Below are positions 11,711 through 47,560 of a DNA stretch of 64,000 nt, piece after piece (position 1 is the first letter of the stretch; each line of letters starts with the position of its first letter). Origin of the DNA: Anadara kagoshimensis (taxonomy: Eukaryota; Mollusca; Bivalvia; Arcoida; Arcidae). The translations under genes were made by a program, and so were the position numbers. The stretch covers positions 58,922,866 to 58,986,865 of the forward strand of contig CM037871.1 in NCBI GenBank assembly GCA_021292105.1, written 5' to 3'. Below the pieces are notes generated by a model. It worked only from the letters and a program-made list of their open reading frames with translations, ran no database searches and had not been told where the DNA came from.

Positions 11711-11905
11711 GTCTATATCTTGTGTCCTTACATAAACATGTCAATGGGCGCAGACATCTTACATCTCGCGAATTCGGTCATGTGACACGCACCTGTTAGC
11801 AATAAAATTGAAAGCAAGTCTCGCGAGATTTCAAATCGAAACTAGACACGAGTTGTTCAACACACGTTTATTTATTGTTTCGTTTCATGTCACTATAGAA
11901 AGGAA
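11711..11905. promoter_or_regulatory. HSCB-LSM6 bidirectional promoter with TCTCGCGAGA
   Basis: The gap between the HSCB start codon (11710) and the probable first, non-coding LSM6 exon (donor GGAA|GTAAGT near 11905) is under 200 bp. A perfect TCTCGCGAGA palindrome lies at 11819-11828, and a half-match CTCGCGAA lies at about 11764-11771. This 10-mer is a known element of CpG-type bidirectional housekeeping promoters in animals. The local CpG content stands out against the AT-rich surroundings. Confidence 0.75.
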
Positions 11906-29100: not shown

Positions 29101-30836
29101 ATGTTGGTCTTCTTCTCTTGGTCCATACAGATGTATACATGTAGTACTTGGTCTAGATAACTCAGTTGATAGAGCACTCATCTATTCATTGGTAGGTCAT
29201 GTGTTTGATCCCCAGTCCAACCCTGCATTTTTTCTCCTTCCTGTTACAGTTTGTTGACCAGTGTTAGGGCTTGGAAGCACAGGCACTCGTTCACATCAAT
29301 AAAATTTTTATCCCCAGGGCCATACAATACTAATATTAGGGCTGTCACAATTACCCGGATACCCGATAAACGGGTCGGTTCCATGCTGTAACCGGTTACA
29401 GAATCATTAACCGGGTAACCGACAATACGCTGTTCAAAATTCATAAATGCGCTTTAAAATCGTAATCATTCTGATAAACATTTTGAATGACGTTTAAAAT
29501 TCTGTGTTTTAACGAGTTTATCGTTAATGTTATTTGCATACATTGAATAAATTTTCAAGTTTGATTTCTTATTTTTGAAGTTATTAGTAACTTATTACGG
29601 CAAGTCAGCTTCTGGTTAACGAAGCGCATGCGTCATTATGAAAAAAACGTGTATAGTCCGTCGACGATATTTGGCAGTATTTATAAATATGGAAGAGCCT
29701 ACGTTATATATTGCTTAAGATAGGGATATATAACTGTGGAGTTGACAGATGACGGCGTGAATATGCGGTATTAACTAATTATAAACATTCTGCCGCGATA
29801 TCGCTGCCGGACTATTCACACGAGGTATACAGTTTGAAATATTAGACGTGCAAAGAAATAAATTCATTTTCAAGGTTAAGTTTATTTCTTAACTGACATA
29901 TATAACTGTGACACTTTGTTAAATATGGAAATCTTAATTAATTGTATAGAATATCGGGTAACCGGTCACGGTTCGGGTACCACATGTCGGGTACCCGGTT
30001 ATGAAAATTGCTAACCGCGACAGCCCTAACTAATATATATGTCATATATTTAGTATTGTATGGCCCTGGGGATAAAAATTTTATTGATGTAAACGAGTGC
30101 CTGTGCTTGGAAGTGGTAGACTGGCAATGTTGTGCAATATAAAGTCCATAAGAGGAAATTTGGACGAAATTTCCCACGTGGGTCCATGGGAAACTCGAAA
30201 ATAACGGAAGAAATGTAGTGGTCTGGGTAGCTCAGTTGACAGAGCACTCGCCTATAGTGTGGGAGGTCTTGGGTTTGATCACCAGTCGGATCCTGCATTT
30301 TTTCTCCATTCTATTAAATACTGTACAGAAAATTATCTGGTAAAATCATTATTAAATCTTACCAAACAAAATGATCAACTTGTTCTTAGATTTTTTAAGA
30401 ATTCTACTAGACCAGTTCCATGGCAGGATATTTTTTTGCCAAATGCAAGAATGTCCCCAACCTGTCATTGTGGGTGAAGAGGAGTGGAACCGGCGTGGTG
30501 ATTTGGATTTATTTTGGCGATTTCATTAATTAATACTGTATCGTAATGGACATATCATACAATGAAACCAAAAGATAGACATTTAACATCAATACTATCG
30601 ATAAACAACTGTAAATGAAAATCTAAATAATGTCCTATCAAAAAATCGTCTGCAACTTCACACACGTGTGTGATTCTCGAGAGGTTCCCTGTACGTTATA
30701 CCTAAAAAGGTAGAGTAGAGTGGGGATTTTAAAATTCAGGACTTTCAATAAAGAATAAAGTATCTAATTGTAAGTTTCTTATTCAAACCTGTGACGGAAT
30801 TTGGACGATTAACTTCCTCAGTAACCGTAAAGCCAT
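20106..30836 (-). CDS. IDH3A: IDH3A, NAD-dependent isocitrate dehydrogenase alpha subunit, mitochondrial
   Basis: Eleven coding exons (minus): 30836-30789, 27197-27153, 26981-26898, 26025-25853, 24859-24730, 23929-23796, 23333-23231, 22344-22280, 21841-21760, 20878-20726, 20189-20106. They total 1101 nt, 366 residues, the same length as human IDH3A, with matching phases and GT-AG introns throughout. Exon 1 ([16 protein letters not shown]) is an amphipathic basic presequence. Motifs follow in order: [55 protein letters not shown]; the metal-site loop NLYGDILSDLCAGL; and [16 protein letters not shown]. As catalytic subunit of the alpha2-beta-gamma enzyme it oxidises isocitrate to 2-oxoglutarate in the TCA cycle, in the matrix. 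A Mutator-like element lies 66 bp upstream of the ATG. Intron 1 holds an LTR element and nested insertions, and intron 5 a SINE. Confidence 0.97.
24048..24391 (-). repeat. Well-preserved tRNA-derived SINE, family A (minus)
   Basis: Best copy in the window. On the minus strand it opens with AGCTCAGTTGGTAGAGTGCT (A box) and GGTTCGAACCC (B box), continues with GTCTGACCCAAGACTTAAAA, CTGTTCTTTCGCCAAGCAC and a central CCTGCTGTATAATGCCATC, and ends at TGGGACGTTAAACCCC followed by a TCAC tandem tail. It lies in IDH3A intron 5. Confidence 0.85.
25262..25390. repeat. CRE-like motifs and small hairpin in IDH3A intron 4
   Basis: ATGACGTCG and TATGACGTCATAA (a perfect TGACGTCA) lie about 20 bp apart near 25267-25297. 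They are followed by a 12-bp-stem hairpin (GTTAGTGTGCAA and its inverse, about 25346-25382). No coding content. A function is not implied. Confidence 0.4.
27468..27620 (-). repeat. 3' LTR
   Basis: Copy nearest the polypurine tract. It contains a perfect CRE palindrome (TGACGTCA) in the block GTGACGTCACATGACGT, near the LTR start on the minus strand. Its near identity to the other LTR suggests a fairly young insertion. Confidence 0.85.
27836..28210 (-). pseudogene. Ty3/Gypsy-like pol C-terminus (integrase tail)
   Basis: The frame is open from about 28210 (just after a stop) to the stop at 27836. It begins [18 protein letters not shown], a small beta-barrel typical of the integrase C-terminal region. 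[10 protein letters not shown] and [10 protein letters not shown] follow, then a Pro/Ser-rich tail ending [14 protein letters not shown], a usual Gypsy-type pol terminus. Protease, RT, RNase H and the integrase core are absent. Confidence 0.75.
28392..28546 (-). repeat. 5' LTR
   Basis: Partner of 27468-27620. It has an extra TA in the TATATATAC stretch and a GACAGATATAC variant, and it also carries TGACGTCA. Followed inward by the primer-binding-site-like TGGTGTCAG. Confidence 0.85.
28608..28925 (+). repeat. SINE family C copies (plus)
   Basis: A head with ACTCAATCGGTTGAGTGTCC is followed by CCCTGCATTTTTTCCCTTTC and the family body (GGAACCTGGTGGCTTTGATTC). A second, shorter head starts near 28855. 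They lie in IDH3A intron 1. Confidence 0.55.
29150..29277 (+). repeat. SINE family C head, interrupted by a foldback element
   Basis: Head TAACTCAGTTGATAGAGCAC, T-arm-like GTTTGATCCCC, then CCTGCATTTTTTCTCCTTCC and CTGTTACAG. The body is cut at CTTGGAAG (29270-29277) and resumes at a second CTTGGAAG (30106-30113). Confidence 0.6.
29337..30028. mobile_element. Non-autonomous hAT-like element, 8-bp TSD ACTAATAT
   Basis: Ends TAGGGCTGTC and GACAGCCCTA, with subterminal ACCCGG/CCGGGT-rich inverted sequence. ACTAATAT is repeated exactly at 29329-29336 and 30029-30036. No transposase. A further MITE (29653-29813) lies inside. Confidence 0.88.
29653..29813. mobile_element. TA MITE, family 3, nested copy
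   Basis: Ends TATAGTCCGTCGACGATATT and, inverted, AATAGTCCGGCAGCGATATC match the copy at 8561-8790. It is shorter in the middle and lies inside the hAT-like element. Confidence 0.65.
30216..30305 (+). repeat. SINE family C head (plus)
   Basis: GGTCTGGGTAGCTCAGTTGA, GAGCACTCGCC, then GGTTTGATCACC and CCTGCATTTTTTCTCC. tRNA-like, but with mismatched T-arm pairs. Confidence 0.6.
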
Positions 30837-30902: not shown

Positions 30903-30911
30903 GTGAAAGTA
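30903..30911. repeat. Target site duplication, left copy (GTGAAAGTA)
   Basis: Nine bases identical to 42141-42149, directly outside the transposon end GGTGGTCACG. Its near edge is 66 bp from the IDH3A ATG, in the IDH3A 5' UTR or core promoter. Confidence 0.95.
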
Positions 30912-32460
30912 GGTGGTCACGAATTTGTGTAGCATTTTGGTAGCATTTTGGTAGCATTTGTGTACCATTTTTAAAACGCCAATTTCACCTGAAGTAATAA
31001 ATATTGTTACTTTATTTTTGATATAAATGTGCTTATATATGTATATTTTACATATATTATATGAGTTTTTATTAACATGATACTTTTAATAATGAAATTC
31101 AACGAAATCGTAGGGGTGTAAACTGACTTCAGTTAAGGAAATATATCGATGTCCGGCCATTTTGGTAGCATTTTTTAGCATTTTCAAATGGCCATTTCTC
31201 TAAAAATACAAAATATCATAACTTTATATTTTATATAAATGTGTAATTATATGTTTTTTATACATAGATTATAAGAGTTTTCATTAATATGGCGGGTTTA
31301 ATAAAGAAATTGAACAAAAACGTAGGGGTGTTTACCGACTTCATATGGAGAAAATATATCGATGTCCGGCCATTTTGGTAGCATTTTTTAGCATTTTCAA
31401 ATGGCCATTTCTCTAAAAATACAAAATGTCATAACTTTATATTTTATATAAATGTGTTATTATATGTCTTTTTTACATTCATTATAAAAGTTTTCATTAA
31501 TATGGCGGGTTTAATAAAGAAATTGAACAAAAACGTAGGGTGTTTACCGACTTCATATGGAGAAAATATATCGATGTCCGGCCATTTTGGTAGCATTTTT
31601 TAGCATTTTCAAATGACAATTTATCTAAAAATACAAAATGTCATAACTTTATATTTTATATAAATGTGTTATTATATGTCTTTTTTACATTCATTATAAA
31701 AGTTTTCATTAATATGGCGGGTTTAATAAAGAAATTGAACAAAAACGTAGGGGTGTTTACCGACTTCATATGGAGAAAATATATCGATGTCCGGCCAGTT
31801 TGGTAGCATTTTTTAGCATTTTCAAATGGCTATTTATCTGAAAATACAAAATGTCATAACTTTATATTTTATATAAATGTGTTATTATATGTCTTTTTTA
31901 CATTCATTATAAAAGTTTTCATTAATATGGCGGGTTTAATAAAGAAATTGAACAAAAACGTAGGGGTGTTTACCGACTTCATATGGAGAAAATATATCGA
32001 TGTCCGGCCATTTTGGTAGCATTTTTTAGCATTTTCAAATGGCCATTTCTCTAAAAATACAAAATGTCATAACTTTATATTTTATATAAATGTGTTATTA
32101 TATGTCTTTTTTACATTCATTATAAAAGTTTTCATTAATATGGCGGGTTTAATAAAGAAATTGAACAAAAACGTAGGGGTGTTTACCGACTTCATATGGA
32201 GAGAATATATCGATGTCCGGCCATTTTGGTAGCATTTTTTAGCATTTTCAAATGGCTATTTATCTAAAAATACAAAATGTCATAACTTTATATTTTATAT
32301 AAATGTGTTATTTTATGTCTTTTTTACATTCATTGTAAAAGTTTTCATTAATATGGCGGTTTTAATAAAGAAATTGAACAAAAACGTAGGGGTGTTTACC
32401 GACTTCATATGGAGAATATATATCGTATGCCGACCATTTTGGTAGCATTTTTAAGTGGCC
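30912..32460. repeat. Left terminal inverted repeat with six 213-bp units
   Basis: The terminal segment (30912-31147) contains TTTGGTAGCAT-type motifs in quick succession. Then units start at GATGTCCGGCC at 31148, 31361, 31573, 31786, 31999 and 32212 (spacing 212-213), and a decayed start follows near 32425. Each unit has CCATTTTGGTAGCATTTTTT early and CGGGTTTAATAAAGAAATTG late. Units 2-6 are far more alike than the outermost one. Confidence 0.92.
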
Positions 32461-34104
32461 ATTTCTCTTTAAATACAAAATGCCATACCTTTATATTATC
32501 TAAAAATGCGTTATTATATTCTATTTGATATATATTATGACAACATTTATCGATATTATGTCTTTCATGAATCGACATAGACAGTATTATATTCCGAATG
32601 CAAGGGAGATCACTGCTATTAAAAAGAGTGAAAACGCTAAACACGTTGGCGTGGGGATCCTTTATTATATTATAATTATTAAGAGTTTTGAATGTCAATT
32701 TCTGCACATTTAAAAACAAATGGTATCAATTTTTTCCAAACAATAATTTGTTCAATGATTAGTTGCTTTAATAATAATAAAATAATAATAATAAAAATAA
32801 TAATAATATTAATAATATTTTAATTTAATTTACGAATCAAAATAATTTGATTTTAAACGAGAACTCTTAGCCATGTTCTTAAGAACATGTTACCAGACCC
32901 TACTACGTGGAAGTGGTTCTCACAGGATCCAAATTATTTGAGTAGTTGGTAATTTTTATTATGAGTTATAAATTATAAATTTATTTATTTTTAATAATTT
33001 AAAAAAAGTTGTTTATATAATATTTTAAAGTATTTAATAATATAGTAATAAAATTAGCACTTATATTTCTTAATAATAAAATTAGTTATTTATAATTATG
33101 GTATCATTGATATTAAAATTATAAATTTGTTTATTCACCATAATTTTGGAAAAATTTGTATTTATTTATAATTTATTTATTTGTTTATTTATTTATCATA
33201 AATTTTCAAAAAGTATTTATTTATATTAAAATTATACAATAATTTGAGAAAAATGTTAATGTATAATTTAAAAAGAATGTATTTAATAATATTCATAATT
33301 AGTTTATAAAATTAGTAATGTTATTTATTTATAATATAGGTAATAATTTATATTAAAGGTATTAAATTTAGAAAAATATGTATTAATTTATTATCTATTT
33401 ATCATTTAAATTTTTAAAAGTATTTACTTATTCATTATTAATTTATAAAATTATTAATTTTTCTATTTTATTTATTTATAATAAAATTTGTTATTTATAA
33501 TAAAAGTAATTGTTTATACTAAAATTATAAATTTATTTATTGACAGTAATTGGAAAAAAAAATTATGTATGTTTTATATAATAATTTGAATAAAGTTAAC
33601 TTATGTATTTATTTATAATTTTATTATTTATCATAAATTTTTAAAACATTTTATTTATTCTTGATTAATTTATAAGGTTAATAATCTAATTAATTTCATT
33701 TCATTTATTTATTTATTTATTTATTTATATATAATAAAATTAGTCATTGAAAAAAGTTCATCTATGTATTTATTTATTTTTAAAATAATGGGCAACCTAT
33801 TAATGGAAATTATTATATAATTACTACTTTTTAATTTATATTTTAGTCCACCGTTCATTAATATTTATATGCTATAGCATACAAAACGAAATAATGTAAC
33901 AGCAATGACAGAGAACAACATCAAATATAGCCAATAATCATTATAATATAAATCATGTCATTAAAATTGTTCTTATTTTACATTCTGGGTGTAAATAATA
34001 TCCAATGTACGGTTGATATAAATTTCAAATTAGAATAGATTTCATTTCAGATAATGGGGTAATGCAAGCACAGTTTAAAAAAAATTCAATGTTTAAGGCA
34101 AAAT
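32461..34104. other. AT-rich non-coding block inside the transposon
   Basis: From about 32735 to 33850 the sequence is almost entirely A/T, with TTTATTTATTTA and AATAATAAT runs. Beyond lies the 3' flank of the transposase gene. No gene or hairpin of note. Confidence 0.6.
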
Positions 34105-36654
34105 TTATGTACAACTACCGCACTGAAATATAAAGCTCTCTCTAAAATCATCATCTACTCCAGCACACGAATTATGAAACCATTTCATACATATTTCGCA
34201 AGCAACCATGTCTTCGAAACTGTTGGTCAGGGTGCATAATTCACACTCTGTCAGAATTTCTAATTCTAGTGGCAATTTCATAATGGATGATTTTGCATTC
34301 TTTGTTATTTTTGGAAACGGTTCGAACTTTCTTTGCTGCAAACATTTCATTAGATGTTTTCTCATTACATTTTTATCAAAAATGACGTTGCCGAATTCAG
34401 TAAGTGTAAAACAAAACTCGACCAAATTTGCTATAGCAAATACTCCACAATCTACACAATTATCTTGTTGTTGAATACGTGGCATAGTAACTTTAACTTT
34501 TTTGCCAATAGATTTTCTCCCGTATGCAGATGAAAGTTGGATTTCTAATGAAGTTGTTACTTGCATGTTTTTCTCTACTAATGAAATTAAACTGTCATAT
34601 AGATATATCTTTTCTAAATCTAATTGAACCGAAGTTACCCAATGTCCTTTTCCAGTAAAATGTATTTGGGCTGAAGGGGGTTCATTTGGCAGCATTGGGA
34701 AAGCATACCTCCATTTATCGCCATCTTTCTTTGGTACATAACATGTAAACCGCATACCATTAATTGCAGGGAATTGTTCTGTTAAAATATTTTGTGCAAA
34801 ATTTATTACAGATTGACATAAAGATTTATCATTTATAATATCATATTTATCTGAAAATGTTAAAAACGTACCATTTCCATGCGTAAGCCATGTACGACCT
34901 TGTTTCTTCTGTTGATTTTCTTGTTTTTCTTCAGTTGGAGAAGTTCCCTCATCGCGTATTTCAATTACCTCTTGAATAGGCGGGAATAAAACTTTAGACT
35001 TCTTTGGCAAAGATAATCTTCGTTTTTTATTTTTTATTGCTAAAGCTCTCATCTCGTGTTCCTCGATTTCAATGACAGAACCAAGGGTTTTGGTAGTTTC
35101 TTTATGCAAAGATTTTTTCACGTCATTAGATATATTCATGTTGTTATCAGTTTCGGGACTTACTACTACTTCTGTACAGTCCTCAACTATTTCAGACAGA
35201 TGTCGTTTTTTAATCATCGGTGTAGACGTACTAATTGGCGAATATATTTTCAAATCCACAGACTCTTTTTTTGAACATTTCTTTGATAATGATAATCGGT
35301 GTCTTTTTTTTTCTGGTAAAGTCGGTGTATCAAAATTAATCCTCTTTTTTGCTGTATGTGGCTTTTGCTTACCTGTCGTATTTTTAAGTATAGATTTTGG
35401 AGTATTTGGTAGGAAATTTGATGATGGTGTTTTAGCAGGTGTGATTTTATTATCAACATTCAAGTCCATTGCCATTTCATAATTTTCATTTTCCATATCA
35501 TGAAAGGTTGCATCTGGTGCTGGATTAACAGTCATATCTAGTTTATCGATAGGTCTAGGTTTTTTCTGACCAGCTTTCTTGTCTAATCTTTTCCTACTGT
35601 TTTTTCGTAATTTTGTAAGGTTGTACTCTCTCTTGAAATTTTGATCTTCCAAACCAATACTAATTTTGGCAGCCAAAATATGATAACACGTACCTGTTGA
35701 CGGACATTGACATTTTTCTCGAGGAAAGAGTTCTACTGCATACTTATCCCTTTTTGAACCTTCTACAATAAAAGCTTTTGCTTCAGCAACATGATGGACT
35801 TTGTTTTGTGCAACTGTAGCAATAGCTAATGATCTTTGACTGACACCTTTTCTTGGCATGTCATCATCTAGTCTTGTGGCATCTATACTGTTTCCAAGAT
35901 TACTAAGATGAGAGCTATCTTTTTCATTGGAATCTTTTGTTGGTGCCACATTTTCTTTAAGTTCGATCATTTTGCCTTTCACAAGATCGATGATGGCATC
36001 AGGAGCACAAACATCTTGTGGTACAACAATATCGTCTGGATCACGTTCTGCTGACTTATGAATCGATTTCAATTTGAATTCTCCAATGCCACATAAACCT
36101 CTTGAAATTTCGTGTAAAAAGAAATTTTGCAGGTAATAAAATGAGAGAATAATACTATCTAAAGGAACTTCTTTCCAATTTACTAACCTTTTCATTAACG
36201 AATTCATAGCTTCAGAAATGTTGTTGGTAATTCCCGAATAAGCATCATATATTTCTAAGTTCTCCAGTATCCACCTACCTGAGTGTTCCGAAATGCATTC
36301 CTTCATATGATGTTCAAAATATTCTGTCATTGGTTGACTCCAATTTCTAGATAATTCCTGATATTGTTTTTGGAAATCATCTTTTGTTTCAGCATGAAGA
36401 AGGTTCCTGATATTCTCCATGTATACAGTTAAATCATCAGAGCTTGCACCGTGATTCCTTAACCAACGTTTTGTGTCTTGAAGTAAATGGTTCCAGCAGT
36501 AGACAATGTATGCATTGGGAATGTTGGTTGAAATAGCATTCGTAATACTCTTCTCTCTGTCTGTTACGATGATTGTTTGCTTTTTCAAAAGATTTGGTAT
36601 TAATTTTTTTCTTGTTCCAGAAAAAGTCATGCACATCCGTAGATTTTCTGTCAT
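34105..36654 (-). CDS. Transposase C-terminal part: DDE end, SWIM finger, Ulp1/C48 protease, PHD-like finger
   Basis: An 849-codon open frame, the largest intact piece of the transposon gene. Its start is artificial, because it continues upstream after a 1-nt shift near 36610. In order: the second catalytic Asp (TIIVTDREKSI, ~36560), the MULE CxxH (YCWNHL) and the putative catalytic Glu (NNISEAMNSLMKR, ~36205). Next is a SWIM zinc finger (CQCPSTGTCYH, ~35700), then ~350 residues of basic, Ser/Lys-rich low-complexity sequence. An Ulp1-type cysteine protease follows with the family's His (GHWVTS), Asp (YLYDSL), Gln (QQQDNC) and Cys (VDCGVFA). Last is a Cys-rich finger CELC..CEIC.KWFHNSC..CGSC like a PHD. 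MULE transposases cut and paste DNA in the nucleus. The Ulp1 domain probably cleaves SUMO-like tags or the polyprotein itself (inference). Confidence 0.9.
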   Translation of the reverse strand: MTENLRMCMTFSGTRKKLIPNLLKKQTIIVTDREKSITNAISTNIPNAYIVYCWNHLLQDTKRWLRNHGASSDDLTVYMENIRNLLHAETKDDFQKQYQELSRNWSQPMTEYFEHHMKECISEHSGRWILENLEIYDAYSGITNNISEAMNSLMKRLVNWKEVPLDSIILSFYYLQNFFLHEISRGLCGIGEFKLKSIHKSAERDPDDIVVPQDVCAPDAIIDLVKGKMIELKENVAPTKDSNEKDSSHLSNLGNSIDATRLDDDMPRKGVSQRSLAIATVAQNKVHHVAEAKAFIVEGSKRDKYAVELFPREKCQCPSTGTCYHILAAKISIGLEDQNFKREYNLTKLRKNSRKRLDKKAGQKKPRPIDKLDMTVNPAPDATFHDMENENYEMAMDLNVDNKITPAKTPSSNFLPNTPKSILKNTTGKQKPHTAKKRINFDTPTLPEKKRHRLSLSKKCSKKESVDLKIYSPISTSTPMIKKRHLSEIVEDCTEVVVSPETDNNMNISNDVKKSLHKETTKTLGSVIEIEEHEMRALAIKNKKRRLSLPKKSKVLFPPIQEVIEIRDEGTSPTEEKQENQQKKQGRTWLTHGNGTFLTFSDKYDIINDKSLCQSVINFAQNILTEQFPAINGMRFTCYVPKKDGDKWRYAFPMLPNEPPSAQIHFTGKGHWVTSVQLDLEKIYLYDSLISLVEKNMQVTTSLEIQLSSAYGRKSIGKKVKVTMPRIQQQDNCVDCGVFAIANLVEFCFTLTEFGNVIFDKNVMRKHLMKCLQQRKFEPFPKITKNAKSSIMKLPLELEILTECELCTLTNSFEDMVACEICMKWFHNSCAGVDDDFRESFIFQCGSCT

Positions 36655-37102
36655 GAATATAAAATGCTGCTGGAATTATCTTGTTACCCTTAAATAAAAC
36701 GTGTCTGAAAACTAACGTAGAAACAAAGAAATCTCCCATACAAAAAGTAGTGTCATACGACATATACAAGGTTTCATCTGATTTTATCGTTAACAATTTA
36801 TTTAACTCTGCCAAAAGATCTGAACAGGCAGCTATGCATTTTAAGTCCGGCACTATAGCCAAATCGTGAATGAAACTATCTAAATGATAATGAAGTTCAA
36901 CTGTACTAAAAATTTCATCATGGCTGATTTTTCTTTGTTTTCGAACATTATGGTGATGGTCCCTAATTTGTCTTATAGTTTTGGGGTTCATTACTCCCTG
37001 GTATGTGCCTTTCACTGGATTTTCGGTAACCATTTTTTTGTATACATGGGCGGGCTCATTTACAATACACTGTTCTCTTATTTTTTGATGAGTCGTTGGC
37101 AA
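36437..37102 (-). CDS. Transposase N-terminal catalytic part (frame-shifted segment)
   Basis: The second frame of the same gene. It contains the pre-catalytic region (HDEIFSTVELHYHLD) and the first catalytic Asp motif (MSYDTTFCMGDFFVS, ~36750), followed by FIHDRKSTDVH-like sequence that leads into the DDE core. It opens right after the NADAR-bearing frame (1-nt deletion near 37180, in a GGG run) and passes to the downstream frame near 36610, in a run of seven A. Both shifts are single bases in homopolymers. Removing them would give one continuous protein. Confidence 0.85.
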   Translation of the reverse strand: MPTTHQKIREQCIVNEPAHVYKKMVTENPVKGTYQGVMNPKTIRQIRDHHHNVRKQRKISHDEIFSTVELHYHLDSFIHDLAIVPDLKCIAACSDLLAELNKLLTIKSDETLYMSYDTTFCMGDFFVSTLVFRHVLFKGNKIIPAAFYIHDRKSTDVHDFFWNKKKINTKSFEKANNHRNRQREEYYECYFNQHSQCIHCLLLEPFTSRHKTLVKESRCKL

Positions 37103-38107
37103 AGTTCGAATATATATGTTATTTTCAGATTTTGAATTTCCATGAGCCCTCGGTAAAAAACATGTTTCATCCCATAATAATGCACCAAAACGATACCCTC
37201 TCTACAATTTGTATATGTCTTTCGTTGAAATGTATCATCACCCTTTCTGTCACCCTTACCTTTTGAAATTTTATAATGCCGATTTATATAATCGGGATTT
37301 GGTGAATTTCGTGGAATGTCGTGCATACCTTTATTAATCCAAATATAACGATCTGCAGTCCAATCTTTCTGATATGTGGCACTGTCACTTTTATAAACAT
37401 ATATTTCACCTGCTTTAGGATACCTGGGAGGAATATTCGAAATCCTATCACTATTAATATTTGCAAATACAACAAGCGCCTGTTTGTGTGAAAAATGTTT
37501 AACATTATCCTCATATACAACGCATTTGTGTTCAGGTCCACCCCCTCTAACAACTTCAGTTGATAAATTCCTCGTTAACTTACCGTCATCCACAGTTGAA
37601 CATTCTATCGCTAATGTACTTACCTCAGATGAAGATTTAGTCTCTATCTTACAGACTAGCTCATCTCTAAGTTTCATCAGCAGTTTACCGAAATAATTCT
37701 TACCTCCACGTGACGAGCCCCAGAACGGATCAGCAACATTATGAAGCAACACTTTATCTTTTAAACTCACCAGTGTTTTATAAAGCAATGGTACCTGTTC
37801 CAATTTAATGCGCAGTATTTCTTCCATAACAGAATATCTCTGTTTTAGCCACTCTGTAGAACTTACCACTTGTTTGGAAATTAATTTTGCAGCTTTTGCA
37901 GATGGAGCACACCGTAAATTTGTTGCGATACTTACTTTTCCGTGAAATACGGCCTTCTTATACTGATACAAATGTTCTGTACTGTTAAACCGCCTACCTT
38001 TATAAACAATGTTACAAGGAAAAAAATTTGACAAAACTGTTGATTGGCCCTTAAAATAAATACGATTATTTATACCTGACTGAGTTGGAGTCTTCTGTAG
38101 AGTTGGC
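37078..38107 (-). CDS. NADAR domain and following conserved region of the transposon protein
   Basis: NADAR occupies about 38065-37650. It opens IYFKGQ and LSNFFPC, then FNSTEHLYQYKKA (the family's EH..Q..KA motif), DPFWGSSRGG.NYFGKLLM and ends KLRDEL. All hallmark blocks are present. NADAR proteins (YbiA type) act on ADP-ribosyl or riboflavin-intermediate N-glycosidic bonds. The next ~170 residues (YPKAGEIYVYKS, DRYIWINKG, VLVHYYG) form a conserved-looking region that I cannot name, placed just before the transposase. The same frame is open upstream through the TRPPT-type linker, so no separate start codon is needed. The annotated TTG at 38034 falls inside the domain and is not the real start. 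Confidence 0.85.
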
Positions 38108-38935
38108 GGCCGGTTTGGTCGTTGGGTCGATGCAACAGTTGGTCCAGTTGTCGGTTGGGTCGGCGGTTGACTTGACCGTTGATTTGGTGGTCGATTTGGT
38201 CGACTTGGCGGTCCAGTTGATGGTTTGGTAGGTGGCCGAGTTCGTCGAGTCGGTGGTTGAGATGGTGGCGGAGTTGGTCGTTGAGTTGGTGGTCGAATTG
38301 GTCGAGTCGGCGGTCCAGTTGATGATTTGGTTGGTGGTCCGGTTGGTCGAGTTGGTGGTTGAGTTGGTGGCCGAGTTGGTCTTCGAGATGGTCGAGTCGG
38401 CGGTTGACTTGGCCGTTGAATTGGTGGTCGAATTGGTCGAGTCGGCGGTCTAGTTGGTCGGATTAGTGGTTGAGTTGGTGGTGGAGTTGATCTTTGAGAT
38501 GGTCGTTGAGTTGGTGGTCGAATTGGTCGAGTTGGCGGTCCAGTTGATGGTTTGGTTGTTGGCCCAGTTGGTCGAGTTGGTGGTTGAGTTGGTGGCCGAG
38601 TTGGTCTTCGAGATAGTCGTTGAATTGGTGGTCGAATTGGTCGAATCGGCGGTTGACTTGGCGTTGTTGAATGGTTGGTTCGAATTGGTCGAATCGGCGG
38701 TCCAGTTGATGTTTGGTTGTTGGCCCAGTTGGTGGTTGAGTTGGTGCCCGAGTTGGTCCTTTAGGTGGCCGAGTTGGTTGCTGAGTTGATGGTCGATTCG
38801 GCAGACGTATTGATGGTCGAGGTTTTGGTTGACTTCGTGTTTTACTTGTTAATGAGTTACTTTTTCGTGGAGTTGATGGTCGAGTTGGTGGTCGAGTCGG
38901 TCTTATGGTTTGTGTATTGGTTGGAGGAACAATTT
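38108..38935 (-). repeat. Coding minisatellite: Thr/Pro/Arg-rich linker between SGNH-like and NADAR domains
   Basis: On the minus strand the repeated hexamer-like sequence reads TRPPTQPPT in the frame shared by the flanking domains. Longer sub-repeats of about 170-190 bp recur (for example around 38300, 38540 and 38700). The copy at about 38708 reads CAGTTGATGTTTGG where a sister copy near 38540 reads CAGTTGATGGTTTGG: one G is missing. That single deletion exactly explains the frame difference between the SGNH-like ORF and NADAR. The linker is probably an extended, protease-sensitive or glycosylatable spacer. Confidence 0.75.
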
Positions 38936-40049
38936 TCTGCTTAGAATCAATAAATACTGGTCCCCACACACTTTCCACAACAGTCTCCGTCTTTAAAGTG
39001 GCCATTCTTTTCATGTCGTCGAGACGTAGGTCAGTTACTTCGCGTACATGAAATCTTCCCAATGCTTCTGTATACAGTTTTGACGTACGGGCACTGGTGA
39101 AAATTTCAGGTACAAAGCTGTTTCTGTCCGTATGGCACACACGGTCCACTTCCACCAGGATGTTCTGCACCACCACCTTTGCACCCGCAAAAGAAAAATG
39201 TAAACCATCTCTGGCATACAAAGGTCTGTTCACGGGAACAAAAGTTGGATGGCCCACAACAGACAACCAACTCAGCCTCTGTGATTCACGAAAGAGGAGA
39301 TTATTAACATCACTAGCTCTTTCGTTTATCACAGAGAGGTTAGGCGTTTTTGTCCCTGGATGGAGACTGGGTGCTCTTGGAATAATTGAAGACACCACAA
39401 TCTTCATGCTTAAACAGAAAAAAACACATTTTATTAATAATTCATTATATAATTCAGAAAAATGTACTAGTACAATGACAGGCGGGCATTGCATTTATGA
39501 TTTTAAGGGGAAGTGAAGTTGTCCTGCAAGAACGAACGTTTGTAAGGTCGTCAAATGTAAAAATAATATATATATATATGTATGTACAAGGAATATATTT
39601 TAAATCAGCAATATGTACATTCACAACCTTATAGAAATGTAGTTAATGATAATTTTTTTAAAAAAGGTATATGACAAATTGAATATGAAATTCATACTGA
39701 GATAACCTTCTTTAAAAGTTTTTCGCCAACTCTGTAAAAAGTGTACACAATAACTTGAAACGTGACAGTGTATAGGATAATACGTACCCAGGCTTGGCCA
39801 TCCGAATGTCCGAAAACAATGTTTGGAACCGGCTAAATACCGTACCTGCATCCTCACATCCCAGGTTTTTGGCACCTATATGAAGCACAACAATATCAAA
39901 AGCGGGGATGAGGTCGGAAATAGCCCCAAACATCTGCTCCACCCGAAAACCAGGATGAAACGAGGTCATCACGTCACATCGTTGGGAATGATACCTAGAA
40001 AAGTATCTACCCTGCTGTGAGAGGCGATAAGGGTTGCCATCTTGAGTTT
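38936..40049 (-). CDS. SGNH/GDSL-hydrolase-like N-terminal region of the transposon protein (two exons)
   Basis: Exon ~40049-39788 carries RYFSRYHSQRCDV and IVVLHIGAKNLG, resembling SGNH block III. Its donor CCTGG|GTACGT joins in phase 2 to the acceptor TTTAAG before 39408, giving AKPG-MKIVVSSIIPRAP. The second exon supplies block V with the Asp/His pair (ARDGLHFSFAGAKVVV). It then continues into a TRPPT-type linker and NADAR. Block I (the GDS serine) is not visible and would be in an upstream exon. The usual block III Asn appears replaced by Lys, so activity is uncertain. Such esterase-like domains are known in ORF1 of some LINEs, but I do not know them in MULEs. Confidence 0.68.
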
Positions 40050-40499
40050 CTTATATATATAAGAGTAAATTGCAGAACAATTTGTAGTTTTATGTATACA
40101 ACATAAATTAGTTGATTAATGTTAAGGCCCTGTGTATATATATATACCTTTCAATCAGATGTCCTGTTCATCGATTGGTTCTCCCAAACGAACCAATCTT
40201 TAATCTGAGTGTCAGATTTTAGCAAATTAATTAATTAATTAATTAATTTTTTAATTAATTCAAGGATACTCCCTGGTAAAGCCCCCTTGGCGAAAGTCAG
40301 ATGTGAAATACTGAATAACGTATTGTAATAATATGTCACAAGTTTACTCAATATTAACGAACAAAGGGACATGATAGGATTACTCCCAGCTATTTGGGCT
40401 ACTGAGTCACTTTATGATAATTAATACTTCACGGTAAGTGTTAACAACTGTGTTGACACGTATAATTTATTAAAATTACGAAAATCAAAATATAGTATT

Positions 40500-40500
<1 letters not shown>

Positions 40501-40547
<47 letters not shown>
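40501..40547. repeat. CT microsatellite
   Basis: About 21 uninterrupted CT units within the transposon, in the presumed first intron of its gene. Confidence 0.9.
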
Positions 40548-40549
<2 letters not shown>

Positions 40550-40699
40550 TTTGTGTGGTTAATTATATTAATGCATTACTGTAAATTCTTGTGCGCTTGT
40601 GTATTCAAAATTCAGATTCAGCGTGTAACATAACTTAGTTTGCGATATGTTGATTCTCTAGATAGATTTAACTTAAATAAAAAAATAAAATAAAATAAT

Positions 40700-40930
40700 A
40701 AAAACTGTAGACACTTTAGCCGCTGAAAGGGGATTCTTTACGATGATACCCAAAATCTCATGTTTAGTCGATGATTTTCCCATATGAAAAACGATACCTA
40801 CAAGGCCATAGAACTTATTATTCACTAGGTACAGAGTGACCTCCCTTATGTGCTCGTCGACTACGGTGCTGTCTAAGAATATCGCTTCGTTGACATCGCT
40901 GGATTTCTTCACTAAACGCGTCATGTCCAT
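40700..40930 (-). CDS. Candidate 5' coding exon of the transposon gene
   Basis: From an ATG at 40930 the minus frame reads MDMTRLVKKSSDVNEAIF and on through VVDEHIREVTLYLVNNKFYG. Its composition (GTCGACGAGCAC-like, CpG-bearing) stands out from the AT-rich surroundings. It lies just inside the right repeat array, where a first exon would be expected. The donor is unclear: GTAAAG and GTATCG sites both exist, and only some fit the phase of the 40049 exon. I do not recognise the domain. Confidence 0.35.
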
Positions 40931-41029
40931 GGAACTCGTACAGTATATTTTAAGGAGACATATAATGACAAAATTATACATATTAAAATGCGCGGTATGC
41001 TGTATTTGTAAGAGAAATGGTCACTTGAA

Positions 41030-42140
41030 AATGCTACCAAAATGGCCGGAAATCGATATATTTTCTCCATATGAAGTCGGTAAACACCCCTACGTTTTTG
41101 TTCAATTTCTTTATTAAACCCGCCATATTAATGAAAACTTTTATAATCTATGTAAAAAAAACATATAATAACACATTTATATAAAATATAAAGTTATGAC
41201 ATTTTGTATTTTTAGATAAATTGTCATTTGAAAATGCTAAAAAATGCTACCAAAATGGCCGGACATCGATATATTTTCTCCATATGAAGTCGGTTAACAC
41301 CCCTACAAATTTGTTCAATTTCTTTATTAAAACCGCCATATTAATGAAAACTTTTATAATCTATGTATAAAAAACATATAATTACACATTTATATTAAAT
41401 ATAAAGTTATGGCATTATGTACTTTTAGATAAATTGTCATTTGAAAATGCTAAAAAATGCTACCAAAATGGCCGGACATCGATATATTTTCTCCATATGA
41501 AGTCGGTTAACACCCCTACAAATTTGTTCAATTTCTTTATTAAAACCGCCATATTAATGAAAACTTTTATAATCTATGTAAAAAAGACATATAATAACAC
41601 ATTTATAAAAATATAAAGTTATGACATTTGTATTTTTAGATAAATTGTCATTTGAAAATGCTAAAAAATGCTACCAAAATGGCCGGACATCGATATATTT
41701 TCTCCATATGAAGTCGGTTAACACCCCTACAAATTTGTTCAATTTCTTTATTAAAACCGCCATATTAATGAAAACTTTTATAATCTATGTATAAAAAACA
41801 TATAATTACACATTTATATTAAATATAAAGTTATGGCATTATTACTTTTAGAGAAATGGCCATTTGAAAATGCTTAAAAATGCTACCAAAATGGCCGGAC
41901 ATCGATATATTTTCCTCAACCGAAGTCAGTTTATACCGCTACGATTTTGTTTGATTTTATCATTAAAATCATCATGTTAATAAAAACTCATATAATATAT
42001 GTAAAATATACATATATAAGCACATTTATATGAAATATAAAGTAACAATATTCATTATTTCAGGTGAAATTGGCGTTTTAAAAATGGTACACAAATGCTA
42101 CCAAAATGCTACCAAAATGCTACACAAATTCGTGACCACC
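41030..42140. repeat. Right terminal inverted repeat with four 213-bp units
   Basis: Inverted relative to the left array. The marker ATCGATATATTTTCTCC recurs at 41052, 41265, 41478, 41689 and 41901 (spacing 211-213), then the terminal segment ends CACAAATTCGTGACCACC. It has fewer units than the left array, so the arrays have changed length independently. Confidence 0.9.
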
Positions 42141-42149
42141 GTGAAAGTA
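42141..42149. repeat. Target site duplication, right copy (GTGAAAGTA)
   Basis: Identical to 30903-30911 and directly outside the right transposon end. Confidence 0.95.
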
Positions 42150-43392: not shown

Positions 43393-46300
43393 GTTTTTTT
43401 TTATATTTATATCTTTATTCATTTCTATATGATATACATAGACATAAAAAGACATCAATGTTACACCATTCATACACACATTTACACACATATTTACACC
43501 AGGTTGTAATTTGATTTTTCATTTTATGTTGTATATATAACAAAGGATTATACAAGGGCATCAAATATGCCCCACTTTTCACAGTAAGAGTTACAATTTT
43601 TCTTGTGGATATATTCATCAATCTTTTTGTAATATAAAATTTCTTTTCTAGCTGTTTCAAAAAATGGCAGTGTTTTTTGCATTTTTGCTCTGTATATATG
43701 ATTTTTACATAATAGTATAATAAGGTTAAGAGCATATCTGTTTTTACAACAATAACCAAAAAGAATATCTAACAAATTGAAATCAATGTCAAGATTTAAG
43801 TTATCATTTATCCATTTGGCAACATTTTTCCAGAAAATAGTTGTAATTTTACAATCCCAAAAAATATGTATCAGTGTTTCAGATTGTTCATGACAGAAAT
43901 CACATATATCATGGTCTTTTACACCAATCTTGTATAAAAATGTATTTGTACATAATATTCTATGAACAATTCTGTATTGGAACCATGTTAATCTGGTGTC
44001 TTTTACATGTTTAACAGTGTAAAAATTACAAAGTTTCCACCATTTTGCACTAAACTGAGTGTCAAGGGTAATTTCCCATTTTACTTCGCTCTTAGGCTGA
44101 GAGTAAAGTTTCTGAATAAAAATATCATAAAAATCTCTGCTGCCTTTGTTATTTTTTGTTAATAATTCTACAAATTTTACTGACACTAAGTTAGATTCAT
44201 ATCTTATATGTTCAAATTTGTCATATAACATGGCAACTGACTTTTTAAGACCTAAGAACATAGTAAAGGCTGGAGAGAAATTATATTTCTCGCATAAGAG
44301 CTCATAACTGAGTAAATCACCATTTTCACTTAGTATATCACCAATATATAGTATGTTACGTTTAAAAAACGAGCTATAAAAAACTGGTTTATTATTAATA
44401 ACAATAATATCATTATACCATAATGGGATATGTTCATATACTTCTTCGTCAATATTAAGTCTAAGACTATATAGTGCTGAAAATACTTCGGCCCAAAAGG
44501 GGTTTTTTGTCGCTTGAGATAAGTGTTTACTGTACGCATTACCAAACTTTACAAAGTTTTTGAACAGAGTTGGCATGGTGTCATATAACAACTTCACCCA
44601 GGAAGATTCAGATGTAATCAATCTTCTTATCCATGTTAGTTTCAGACTTTTAATAAATGAAGGAGTGTGCACCATTCTTAAACCACCGTTAGTGAAATCT
44701 TGTACTAATAGTTTCCTAGAAATCCTATCAACTTTATTATTCCATATAAATTTGAAAAAAAGTTTTTCTAGTTTCTGTAGTATCATCCGAGATGGTGAGG
44801 GGAGACTGATAAACAGATGTGTAAGTTTAGAGAGCAAGATAGTTTTAACTACAGTTATTTTACCAATAGGTGTCAACATTCTCTTAGACCAGACAAAGAT
44901 TAATCTCTCAATTTCACTAATTTTGTTTTCATAATTGAGATCAACCATTTGGATCAGATTTAGTGAGAAGATAATACCCAAGATAACAATAGGGTTACTT
45001 GTCCATTCCAAATTATAGTCTTCACAAAGTTTGTCAGTAGAATATTTTTTTGAGCCAATCCACATGCATTTAGTCTTTTCATAGTTAGGTTTTAACCCTG
45101 AATATTTTGAGAACTGGTAAATCAGAGACAGTGTATTACGCAAAGAAGCTTCTGAACCATCAAGTAAGATAACAGTATCATCGGCATATTGTGAAAGCTT
45201 ATACTCATTACCTTTGATACAGATGCCTTTTATCTCACTATGATTTCGTAACATAATAGCCATTATTTCAGCACAAATAATGAATAAGTACGGTGAAATT
45301 GGGTCACCTTGACGGCAGCCACGACCAATATTAAAGAATTCTGAAAAGTAGCCATTCTGTATTACACAGAGTTTTACATCATTCAGTATAATCTGAATCC
45401 AGTGTTTAAAATAATCACCAAAATTAAAAAATCCTAAAGTTTTAAAAATAAAATTCCAGGACACTGAGTCAAATGCTTTTTCAAAATCAATGGAAAGCAT
45501 AATTCCAGGTATATCATTTTCTTCAGTTGAATGGATTACATCATATAAAAGCCTTGTGTTTTCCCCAATATATCTGCCTGCTATAAACCCTTTTTGATTT
45601 TCATGGATAATTAAATTCATGACAGTTTTTATTCTATTCGCCAGGACTGTAGATAATATTTTATAGCTAACATTTAGCAGTGAAATAGGTCTCCAGTTCT
45701 TAAGGAGTTCTCTGGGTTTATTGCTTTTTGGGATTAGAGTTACAATTCCAAGTTTTTGTGTGTGAGATAATTCTCCTGTTTTAAAACTGTATATTAAACT
45801 TCTATATAAAAAATCACCTATATCAATCCAGAAAAATTTATAAAATTCTGCTGAAAAACCATCAGTTCCTGGGGTTTTATCATTTTTTAGATGCTTTAGA
45901 GCTATTAATACTTCATGTTTAGTAATATCTTTATCAAGGTTTTGTGTATCGGTACATGTTAGTTTTGGAATGTTTACATTTCCTAAGAGCTCCTCCAGGT
46001 CAACATTCTCAAGTTCAATATCTTTATTTGCATATAAGTTTGCATAGAATGTTTTAATTTCTTGTAAAATTTCTTTCTGACTATAGAGAACATCTCCATT
46101 TTGCTTTTTAAGCTTAGTTACACTTTTATCAACAAAGTTTCGTTTTTCTAGGTTACAAAAATATCTTGTAGGCTTCTCGCCATCTTCAATCCATTTAGAG
46201 CGGGTTCTTAGCAAAAGACCTTCTAATTCTGATTTTCTTAATTCCTCTTGTTCTGATTTTAGTTCACATAGTATGTTATTTAAAAGACTATTATTAGTTT

Positions 46301-47560
46301 CATCTACAATTGCTTGTAAAAATTTAATCTGATGAATAAATGAATTATTTTTTATATTTCTTTCTTTTTTTTTACTTGATGTATAGGGAATTGTCATTTG
46401 TCTTATTTTCATTAACAGAACTTCCAAAAAAGCATGATCGCTAATTAAAAATTGTAAATTTCCATTTGACGGCTCTGAAATAAAGTCTAGAGTATATACT
46501 GGAATTGCATATTCTTTTTTAACTTGCAGAATAATATCTTTTACCTTTTGTATATAAACCGGGTCCTTAAGAAGTGAGTTATTAAAGCGCCAAAAACCCC
46601 TACCCCTTTCAATATCTGAAATTCTAATTTGTATTTCAATTATTGAATGATCGGTCCTATATCCAGGGGATATATCTATTTTTTCAATTAAGGATAACAG
46701 TTCCTCTGAAATTAAAAAAAAATCCAGGCGGGCTTTTTTAGTTGGATTGCTTCTAAACCAAGTGTATCGCTTTTTATTTGGATAATAATTTCTCCATGGA
46801 TCAATCAAATTGAATTCTTTTTTCAGGTCCTCAACAGCTTCTTTATTTTTGGGATTATTTACTTGTGTGTAATTAAAACAATCTAGATTAAAATCTTGGA
46901 CTATATTCCAGTCACCACAAATAATGACGAACTCATTCTGAAAATCATCAATTATATCTCTTAATTTAACATAAAAATCTGTATTTTCTTTATTAGGTCC
47001 ATAAATATTAATTAAGGTTATGTTATATGAAGATATTTCGATTGAAAGTGCTAACAAATTACCAATATCATCCATCCTTTCTTTTTTCAGCTTGTAATCA
47101 AAATTATTATTAAAAAATGTGGCAACTCCCCTAGAGTTAGCAGTACCAGGACTTAATAGACAGTCGAAGCCCCACTGTGACCTTACAGTGTTAGCATCTG
47201 AATGACAGAAATGTGTATCCTGAAGACAATATATTGATCCATTTTTTTCTCTTAAATATTTAAAAACATCTTTTCTTTTCTCATTATTTTGTAGCCCTCT
47301 ACAATTGAGGGACATAATTTTGACAATATTACTCATCTATATGTATAATGAAACCAATATAATTAAGCATAAACTACAACCTGCTACACCCCACTCATAC
47401 CTACATAAACATACAAAAAACATTAAAACATACATTGTACTTTCAGTTAGCATGACGTAATACTTTATGCACCATATGTAAATATAAGAACTGTTAACAT
47501 GAATGGTTTTACTGCCATTCATGCCAATATTTTAGTTTTATAAGGTAGCATTGGTGCAAA
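43393..47560 (-). mobile_element. L1/Tx1-like LINE, ORF2 plus 3' end
   Basis: The minus-strand element carries ORF2 (43548-47336), a short 3' UTR, AATAAA at 43414-43419 and an A-rich tail at about 43393-43402. No ORF1 lies upstream: past 47336 there are only ~500 bp before a SINE. The copy is therefore truncated just 5' of ORF2, or ORF1 is missing. I could not find a target duplication. Confidence 0.8.
43548..47336 (-). CDS. LINE ORF2 protein: endonuclease, reverse transcriptase, zinc knuckle (intact)
   Basis: An uninterrupted 1262-codon frame. An AP-like endonuclease fills residues ~1-235 (MSLNCRGLQN, CLQDTHF, ICGDWN, RLDFFLIS, TDHSIIEI). Reverse transcriptase spans ~480-770, with LIPKSNKP, NWRPISLLNVSYKI, GFIAGRYIGENTRLL, SIDFEKAFDSVSWNF, GCRQGDPISPYLF and QYADDTVILLDGS (catalytic YADD, ~717). 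The C-terminal knuckle is CDFC...H....C near 1145. This set and order place it in the L1/Tx1 group of non-LTR elements. The enzyme nicks target DNA and copies its RNA there. One oddity is Asp in LQDTH where L1-type endonucleases usually have Glu; it is found in relatives, so it may be functional. An intact frame of this length points to recent activity. Confidence 0.95.
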   Translation of the reverse strand: MSNIVKIMSLNCRGLQNNEKRKDVFKYLREKNGSIYCLQDTHFCHSDANTVRSQWGFDCLLSPGTANSRGVATFFNNNFDYKLKKERMDDIGNLLALSIEISSYNITLINIYGPNKENTDFYVKLRDIIDDFQNEFVIICGDWNIVQDFNLDCFNYTQVNNPKNKEAVEDLKKEFNLIDPWRNYYPNKKRYTWFRSNPTKKARLDFFLISEELLSLIEKIDISPGYRTDHSIIEIQIRISDIERGRGFWRFNNSLLKDPVYIQKVKDIILQVKKEYAIPVYTLDFISEPSNGNLQFLISDHAFLEVLLMKIRQMTIPYTSSKKKERNIKNNSFIHQIKFLQAIVDETNNSLLNNILCELKSEQEELRKSELEGLLLRTRSKWIEDGEKPTRYFCNLEKRNFVDKSVTKLKKQNGDVLYSQKEILQEIKTFYANLYANKDIELENVDLEELLGNVNIPKLTCTDTQNLDKDITKHEVLIALKHLKNDKTPGTDGFSAEFYKFFWIDIGDFLYRSLIYSFKTGELSHTQKLGIVTLIPKSNKPRELLKNWRPISLLNVSYKILSTVLANRIKTVMNLIIHENQKGFIAGRYIGENTRLLYDVIHSTEENDIPGIMLSIDFEKAFDSVSWNFIFKTLGFFNFGDYFKHWIQIILNDVKLCVIQNGYFSEFFNIGRGCRQGDPISPYLFIICAEIMAIMLRNHSEIKGICIKGNEYKLSQYADDTVILLDGSEASLRNTLSLIYQFSKYSGLKPNYEKTKCMWIGSKKYSTDKLCEDYNLEWTSNPIVILGIIFSLNLIQMVDLNYENKISEIERLIFVWSKRMLTPIGKITVVKTILLSKLTHLFISLPSPSRMILQKLEKLFFKFIWNNKVDRISRKLLVQDFTNGGLRMVHTPSFIKSLKLTWIRRLITSESSWVKLLYDTMPTLFKNFVKFGNAYSKHLSQATKNPFWAEVFSALYSLRLNIDEEVYEHIPLWYNDIIVINNKPVFYSSFFKRNILYIGDILSENGDLLSYELLCEKYNFSPAFTMFLGLKKSVAMLYDKFEHIRYESNLVSVKFVELLTKNNKGSRDFYDIFIQKLYSQPKSEVKWEITLDTQFSAKWWKLCNFYTVKHVKDTRLTWFQYRIVHRILCTNTFLYKIGVKDHDICDFCHEQSETLIHIFWDCKITTIFWKNVAKWINDNLNLDIDFNLLDILFGYCCKNRYALNLIILLCKNHIYRAKMQKTLPFFETARKEILYYKKIDEYIHKKNCNSYCEKWGIFDALV

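Follow-up and report, generated by a model that had tools for sequence, protein, structure and literature searches.

How a single transposon gene could come to join an esterase-like domain and a NADAR domain to a transposase, and what such a fusion would do, is the question raised by a locus in the bivalve Anadara kagoshimensis. We analyzed a stretch of 64,000 nucleotides (hereafter, the window; GenBank assembly GCA_021292105.1, contig CM037871.1, positions 58,922,866 to 58,986,865 of the forward strand), in which 30912-42140 is occupied by a DNA transposon. An earlier reading of the letters, made without database searches (the sequence-only reading), had described it as a Mutator-like element (MULE) whose one gene appears to fuse SGNH-like, NADAR, MULE transposase, SWIM, Ulp1 protease and PHD domains. 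On the basis of current results, we consider it probable that a single two-exon gene encodes a self-processing polyprotein with an SGNH-NADAR accessory module, carried by a recently mobile MULE.

The element is flanked on either side by an identical 9-bp target-site duplication (TSD), GTGAAAGTA, and its inverted ends agree at 1052 of 1111 aligned bases over ∼1.11 kb, which bears out the exact duplication and inverted ends claimed in the sequence-only reading. With up to three mismatches allowed, the end sequence occurred at both termini and nowhere else in the window, and a scan of a viral contig database with this end (the terminal inverted repeat, TIR) gave no match. A DNA probe spanning NADAR and the neighboring CG-1 domain was searched against the 1.115-Gb genome (G000, in which the window belongs to contig C15). 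It gave 10 matches, seven of which were copies with NADAR, CG-1 and the DDE transposase: the window copy, one each on C5, C10 and C3, and three on C13. The C-terminal half of SGNH was found in six of the seven, the Ulp1-type protease (C48) in four (in C10 as a 21-residue start alone) and PHD in three. Both ends and an identical 9-bp duplication, within the 8-11 bp range of the MULE superfamily, were present in two copies, those of the window and C10 (GATCATTTC); C5 and C3 retained one end each and the three C13 copies none (up to four mismatches). Two further probe matches, on C6, were SGNH and NADAR remnants with no DDE in the 16 kb read, and the match on C17 came from a sister family, where NADAR was not detected. 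Since the window, C5 and C10 copies are near-identical, we infer recent activity of the family. We read the element as a MULE-class DNA transposon that was mobile until recently, with an anatomy like that of Rehavkus and with broken frames in this copy.

The gene runs leftward in two exons, with its domains in the order SGNH, Pro/Thr-rich linker, NADAR, CG-1, DDE, SWIM, C48 and PHD (Table 1). It should be noted that the names SGNH and SWIM, as well as the DDE, SGNH and protease motifs, are putative assignments. The single leftward gene of the sequence-only reading was thus recovered, with a likely intron whose splice signals were identical in the four copies compared (window, C5, C10 and C3). 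The SGNH region, taken there to be continuous, is split by this intron into two halves; in the sister families C1 and C17 it lies uninterrupted within one frame. The frames were also said to be continuous except for three 1-nt shifts. The fusion is indeed open in C5, but the window copy has an additional break in exon 1, the others being in the linker, near 37171 and near 36617. An 856-codon frame stays open in the window from within DDE through SWIM and C48 to PHD, and in C5 a single frame is uninterrupted for 1592 codons, from the SGNH C-terminal half through NADAR, CG-1 and DDE to SWIM, and breaks inside C48. Therefore, these two frames show the domain order in one polypeptide without mending. 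In other copies, too, SGNH, NADAR and DDE keep this arrangement and direction, and the refuting conditions named in the sequence-only reading mostly came out in its favor. Of the domains listed originally, NADAR, MULE, C48 and PHD received Pfam support, but CG-1 had been overlooked.

Table 1. Features of the transposon and its gene (positions in the window)
Feature	Position	Strand	Basis
Left TSD GTGAAAGTA	30903..30911	.	End comparison
Left TIR, mostly 213-bp tandem units (array 30944-32526)	30912..32025	+	
C-terminal PHD finger	34108..34263	-	Pfam 2.3e-5
Ulp1/SENP-type cysteine protease (C48), H-D-Q-C present	34291..34893	-	
SWIM-type CxC..CxH zinc finger	35539..35829	-	Motif aligned to relatives
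MULE DDE transposase core (YDTTF, TDRE, SGITNN..E motifs by eye)	35839..37171	-	
CG-1 (CAMTA-type) DNA-binding domain, NAC/GCM/WRKY-like model	37171..37458	-	
Gly-Gly-Gly motif (VVRGGGPEHK), candidate Ulp1-type cleavage site	37537..37545	-	Cleavage putative
NADAR domain	37627..38076	-	Pfam 7.8e-20; matches YbiA 2b3w, NADAR 8bau
Proline/threonine-rich tandem-repeat linker, one frame break in window copy	38100..38930	-	
Exon 2, SGNH esterase C half (DGLH block)	38931..39404	-	
Likely GT..AG intron, 379 bp	39409..39787	-	Splice signals and reading frame
Exon 1, N-terminal half of SGNH esterase, frame broken in window copy	39788..40040	-	
Right TIR with 213-bp tandem units (array 41028-42108)	41027..42140	-	
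Right TSD GTGAAAGTA	42141..42149	.	End comparison

Relatives were collected by a protein search (9) and an alignment search (87), which together gave 88 different proteins; all are predicted proteins, many of them from short contigs. The named ones came from Ruditapes, Mytilus, Pinctada, Crassostrea, Mercenaria and Hydra. CG-1, MULE, C48 and PHD occurred together in Ruditapes (P0013) and Mytilus (P0016), and parts of this set in proteins of the other four genera. Profiles built here for CG-1, MULE and C48 recurred among the relatives, and PHD was found in five of nine and four of nine Pfam-scanned proteins, the others being mostly truncated. For the transposase core, the Pfam MULE match in the window (8.3e-5, 23.4 bits) was below the cut-off of 27.6 bits because the window frame is broken; the C5 frame, cut at the locus end, scored 23.2 bits. 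PF10551 was above its cut-off in seven of the nine relatives scanned. The D, D and E positions were invariant in all nine aligned relatives and the window has the same motifs, which identifies a MULE catalytic domain. SWIM had no Pfam match in the window frames, a weak one in P0013 (0.029, below cut-off) and a precomputed one, PF04434, in P0059.

The CG-1 domain is the part of the transposase that is new here. In the whole window frame it scored just under the cut-off of 23.5 bits (7e-5, 23.0 bits), and scanned alone it was above it (6.1e-6, 26.4 bits). Across 24 rows, made up of the window and 23 of 32 trimmed relatives, CG-1 matched 22 at E ⩽0.1 (best 1.2e-10), and WRKY matched six of the 24 more weakly (best 7.9e-5). 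An AlphaFold2 model of the domain had a pLDDT (predicted local distance difference test score) of 88.8. With this model, Foldseek placed NAC domains first, at probability 0.97 but E 0.026, with none at 0.001. A second structure comparison returned SSR4 (7.6), 4m8b (7.4), GCM 1odh (6.7), NAC (6.3) and WRKY (5.5), scores that are all below 8, thus middling, and may reflect a common arrangement alone. No CAMTA CG-1 structure was listed in the fold search, and phmmer with the CG-1 stretch alone found nothing in the PDB. CAMTA proteins combine CG-1 with TIG, ankyrin repeats and IQ motifs. Because Pfam matched none of these three in the window frames or in 18 relatives, the predicted product appears to be a CG-1 protein and not a CAMTA. 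We therefore assign the DNA-binding domain of the transposase to CG-1 (CAMTA-type), although WRKY also scores, more weakly, and the model is NAC/GCM/WRKY-like. We propose that CG-1, WRKY, GCM and NAC domains may share ancestry with MULE DNA-binding domains, and a CG-1/WRKY-like domain in a transposase is a lead on the origin of the CAMTA DNA-binding domains.

NADAR was the best supported of the accessory domains, with 72.2 bits in the window frame against a cut-off of 35.1 and with YbiA-like blocks. SGNH gave no Pfam match in the window frames. Its Ser, Gly, Asn and His blocks could all be read by eye in C5 and C10, and the window copy has Lys at the Asn position that those two retain. Pfam matches to SGNH below cut-off came from exon 1 of C5 (0.029) and from the sister C17 (1.9e-4); Lipase_GDSL_2 was below cut-off in the relatives P0066 and P0086, and above it in another SGNH frame of this genome (L044, see below). 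Altogether, SGNH was N-terminal in eight database relatives: P0006, P0013, P0015, P0018 and P0066 by pairwise match with the window C-terminal half, P0086 by Pfam below cut-off, and P0002 and P0023 by eye (the P0002 block being degenerate).

The self-processing part of our reading concerns the protease and a glycine stretch. Peptidase_C48 was matched in the window frame (Pfam 1.9e-7), and its His, Asp, Gln and Cys were invariant in 15 of 15 rows (the window and 14 of 17 trimmed relatives). The C48 model (pLDDT 87.7) had as its best PDB matches SENP5, SENP3, a desumoylating protease, Ulp1, SENP2 and SENP1 (Foldseek E down to 1.2e-5), so that the active site is accompanied by a predicted SENP-like fold. 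SENP/Ulp1 enzymes cut after Gly-Gly. Seventeen proteins, the window included, had a CG-1 match and ∼50 or more residues upstream of it. Among these, Gly-Gly was found upstream of CG-1 in 15 and hydrophobic-x-Gly-Gly in 13, against a mean of 1.9 and a maximum of 7 in 2000 shuffles; a Gly-Gly 20-90 residues upstream was present in 14 (shuffles, mean 2.1 and maximum 7). VVRGGGPE was kept in all seven window-family copies. As to the sister families, C1 and C17 had a glycine run at that place and C2 had GGG, and the motif was not seen in the frames read of C13_19 and C33. The Gly-Gly upstream of CG-1 could be the place at which the Ulp1/SENP-type protease releases the SGNH-NADAR part. For the polyprotein idea there is now a candidate site, together with a protease whose model is SENP-like; cleavage itself is putative.

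A number of results weigh against such a polyprotein. First, two of the 17 proteins had no Gly-Gly, nor did any of the 10 members with 20-49 residues upstream, and the shuffles overstate independence because the members are related. The Gly-Gly stretch could be a conserved linker ahead of CG-1, and the substrate of the protease might rather be SUMO or NEDD8 of the host. The gene might yield one polypeptide that never cuts itself; the Ulp1 domain would then remove SUMO or NEDD8 from the transposase or from silencing proteins of the host, and the glycines would be no more than a flexible linker. The C48 model does match SENP and NEDP1 enzymes, the residues after the glycines are also partly conserved by eye, and in plant MULEs the Ulp1 gene may even lie reverse to mudrA, where self-cleavage cannot apply (PMC2528002). 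However, the glycines recur at a module boundary within an otherwise variable segment, and downstream of the CG-1 start hydrophobic-x-Gly-Gly was restricted to four sites in three of 24 long members. We regard this account as possible, if on the unlikely side.

Second, no copy seen is open across every domain, as C5 breaks in C48 and the window upstream of C48. Two or more separate proteins might arise by splicing or internal starts, the long frame being incidental. The 5′ part has one likely intron or more, and this and the several database members that begin at or near CG-1 would suit such an arrangement, but the 1592-codon frame of C5 crosses the junctions from the SGNH C-terminal half to SWIM, and the database members are predictions, many from short contigs. 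Separate products seem improbable to us.

Third, NADAR is missing from close relatives. The sister families C1 and C17, ∼68% identical to the window family in the first DDE part, have the order SGNH-CG-1-DDE-SWIM-C48-PHD with no NADAR found; phmmer detected NADAR in none of the 88 database relatives. Because of these absences, NADAR is not needed for transposition and is an optional part. The sequence-only reading had named absence of NADAR from other full copies as a sign of chance capture: seven copies carry the domain, but C1 and C17 are without it. A query of the protein database with NADAR plus CG-1 found no protein with both at E 0.001 among 1873 candidates, the search being word-based and over predicted proteins. 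C2 and C33 had CG-1-DDE-C48-PHD with no SGNH or NADAR match, relatives on C8 and C15 were decayed pieces only, and the TSDs of the sister elements C1 and C2 were sought and none resolved. A tree of DDE domains had 88 rows, with C5 standing for the window family, which grouped with F_C13_11 of the same genome, then with P0001, P0006, P0011, P0050 and P0056. F_C13_11 was entered as a row without NADAR, but it lacks its 5′ part, with CG-1 not found either, and is uninformative on NADAR loss. SGNH members were scattered over several places of this tree, where gains and losses are not countable because many unlabelled rows are N-terminally short.

NADAR is widespread elsewhere in this genome. A NADAR protein probe gave 453 first-look candidates and at least 150 places, all scored at E ⩽2.1e-18, a number that includes fragments and window-family copies. 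Four further places were read: a second MULE family, a long interspersed nuclear element (LINE), an element of 2 kb with inverted repeats, and a frame of 1598 codons with SGNH and NADAR. NADAR blocks were kept in five of six aligned contexts, the sixth being shortened. The second MULE family (C6:24642800-24653300), decayed and divergent, had SGNH, NADAR, DDE, SWIM, C48 and PHD matches in the same order as the window family; tblastn gave no CG-1 match there, and the C-terminal end of CG-1 was readable by eye directly ahead of DDE. Identity between the two families was 52-55% in NADAR and 38-42% in DDE, a difference that, taken with the lack of NADAR in C1 and C17, would fit module exchange or repeated loss. 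Scans of viral contig and genome contig databases, which detect close relatives only, yielded no confirmed NADAR relative.

The remaining places were of several kinds. The LINE, recognized by eye (L045, G000:C13:650900-654400), has a 152-codon NADAR frame ahead of its endonuclease frame, and its NADAR had near-identical matches on many contigs. A ∼2-kb stretch (L046, G000:C16:34138300-34142300, 315-2383) lies between 130-bp inverted repeats that are 97.7% alike and holds a 368-codon NADAR-SGNH-C48 frame (GDSL below cut-off; C48 0.0029, below cut-off). No TSD of four or more bases was found at this element, and near-equal NADARs in 335-codon frames on C2, C9, C13 and C17 suggest that it is multi-copy. 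The 1598-codon frame (L044+L050, G000:C11:8399900-8408400) has SGNH above cut-off, NADAR and a long C-terminal part that is unassigned; within L044, a ubiquitin-like stretch ending in GKGGGKRG had a sole match at E 0.43 and no Pfam match, and is a lead only. On C6 (joined L023+L024, reverse strand), remnants of window-type SGNH and NADAR lie beside a 192-codon frame in which, by eye, a shortened NADAR is joined to the beginning of SGNH, a pattern that recurs ∼5.6 kb away.

These data also bear on the idea that NADAR and SGNH are functionless passengers, gene pieces captured in the manner of Pack-MULEs. MULEs are prone to acquire host gene fragments (PMC6446971), and the NADAR-less sisters C1 and C17 would agree with capture. 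The ratio of nonsynonymous to synonymous substitution (dN/dS) against other copies was 0.09-1.14 for NADAR, 0.06-0.89 for DDE parts, and 1.07 (C5) and 1.01 (C10) for the SGNH C-terminal half. NADAR values are thus in or above the DDE range, with no clear sign of selection, which is neither proven nor excluded; the ratio is not decisive because the copies are decaying. Nevertheless, both domains share orientation and frame with the transposase across the 1592 codons of C5, the NADAR blocks persist in most contexts, SGNH takes the N-terminal place in the eight database relatives, and the pair recurs in the second MULE family, so that we find mere passengers highly doubtful. A single-copy chance capture of a host gene is excluded because seven copies and the second MULE family carry NADAR.

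Under the self-processing reading, CG-1 would bind the repeated inverted ends, DDE would cut and paste the element, and PHD might read histones at target sites. The Ulp1-type protease would cut after Gly-Gly and so separate SGNH-NADAR from the transposase; NADAR, once released, could remove ADP-ribose from guanine, or a related adduct, written by the host on element DNA or RNA. NADAR hydrolyses guanine-N2-ADP-ribose, a mark that CARP-1, an enzyme of a clam, makes by attaching ADP-ribose at the N2 of guanine (PMC11543638); the authors state that action of NADAR on CARP-1-type products is assumed and not confirmed (PMC11543638), and the physiological role of animal NADAR domains has been described as unclear (PMC11125620). 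We propose that the SGNH-NADAR part may act as a counter-defence or repair module. It would be an exchangeable cassette, since SGNH and NADAR also occur in further elements of this genome that are likely to be mobile. A far-reaching version would have the self-cutting polyprotein free a counter-defence module whose NADAR erases CARP-1-type guanine marks on DNA or strips ADP-ribose from transposition intermediates, with modules traded among MULEs, LINEs and other elements and with a shared origin of CG-1/WRKY and MULE DNA-binding domains; taken as a whole, it is rather improbable. That one genome has NADARs in mobile elements of several kinds, and that a clam has CARP-1, which ADP-ribosylates guanine (PMC11543638), suggests that animals may see an arms race over the ADP-ribosylation of DNA. 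If the transposase does release an accessory module by means of a built-in SENP-like protease, its mode of expression would be unusual among DNA transposons, and the multi-enzyme fusion hints at how such elements could resist the host.

Other features of the window lie outside the element. A 1262-codon LINE open reading frame (ORF) 2, Tx1/L1-like by eye, occupies 43548-47336 (-), with no NADAR frame seen directly upstream, and another LINE piece lies at 62608-63816. Two tRNA-Tyr-like predictions with anticodon ata, at 10260-10334 (-) and 30220-30293 (+), are possibly tRNA-derived short interspersed nuclear elements (SINEs). A 160-codon frame at 11258-11740 (-) resembles, by motif, part of an HscB-type iron-sulfur co-chaperone gene.

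Finally, the element was compared with known systems. The sequence-only reading knew of no MULE with NADAR or SGNH in the same polypeptide. The passages of the literature searched likewise gave no description of this architecture, or of NADAR or CG-1 in a DNA transposase, but NADAR in Gypsy and Tx1 elements has already been reported (PMC12477816). One paper that matched on Cg-1 (PMC3169594) appears to use this name for a nematode gene. Rehavkus shares the 9-bp TSD, one ORF, a PHD finger and great length (PMC6446971, PMC10218199); Rehavkus-1_TC is 9.5 kb long with 164-bp units in its inverted termini, whereas those of the window element are of 213 bp. The 9-bp TSD, PHD and minisatellite at inverted ends are all found here, whereas CG-1, Ulp1, SGNH and NADAR are unmentioned in the passages on Rehavkus in these two papers. 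The label Rehavkus-like refers to anatomy, and the element is not filed as a member. Phantom, Ghost, Spectre and MULE-Mollusca, the animal MULEs, resemble it in the DDE core, the TIR, a TSD of 8-10 bp where given and, in some, SWIM (PMC6446971). The main text of that paper does not mention peptidase, protease, SGNH, GDSL, CG-1 or NADAR; both of its PHD mentions concern Rehavkus, and its entry for MULE-Mollusca gives neither a zinc finger nor any other motif. Plant MULEs such as Kaonashi also carry an Ulp1-type protease, which occurs there in either orientation, whereas in the window it is fused behind SWIM and followed by PHD (PMC2528002). A YbiA-family NADAR within a mobile-element protein is known from an Ectocarpus Gypsy element and from ORF1 of a Tx1 LINE of Crassostrea gigas; those are retroelements, whereas the window element is a DDE DNA transposon, and it is the NADAR frame of the C13 LINE that is arranged as in the oyster Tx1 (PMC12477816). 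SGNH esterases are accessory parts of LINEs, Penelope-like and long terminal repeat elements (PMC5408684), present as an accessory domain or ORF (PMC5408684, PMC3905857), whereas here SGNH is fused to a MULE transposase.

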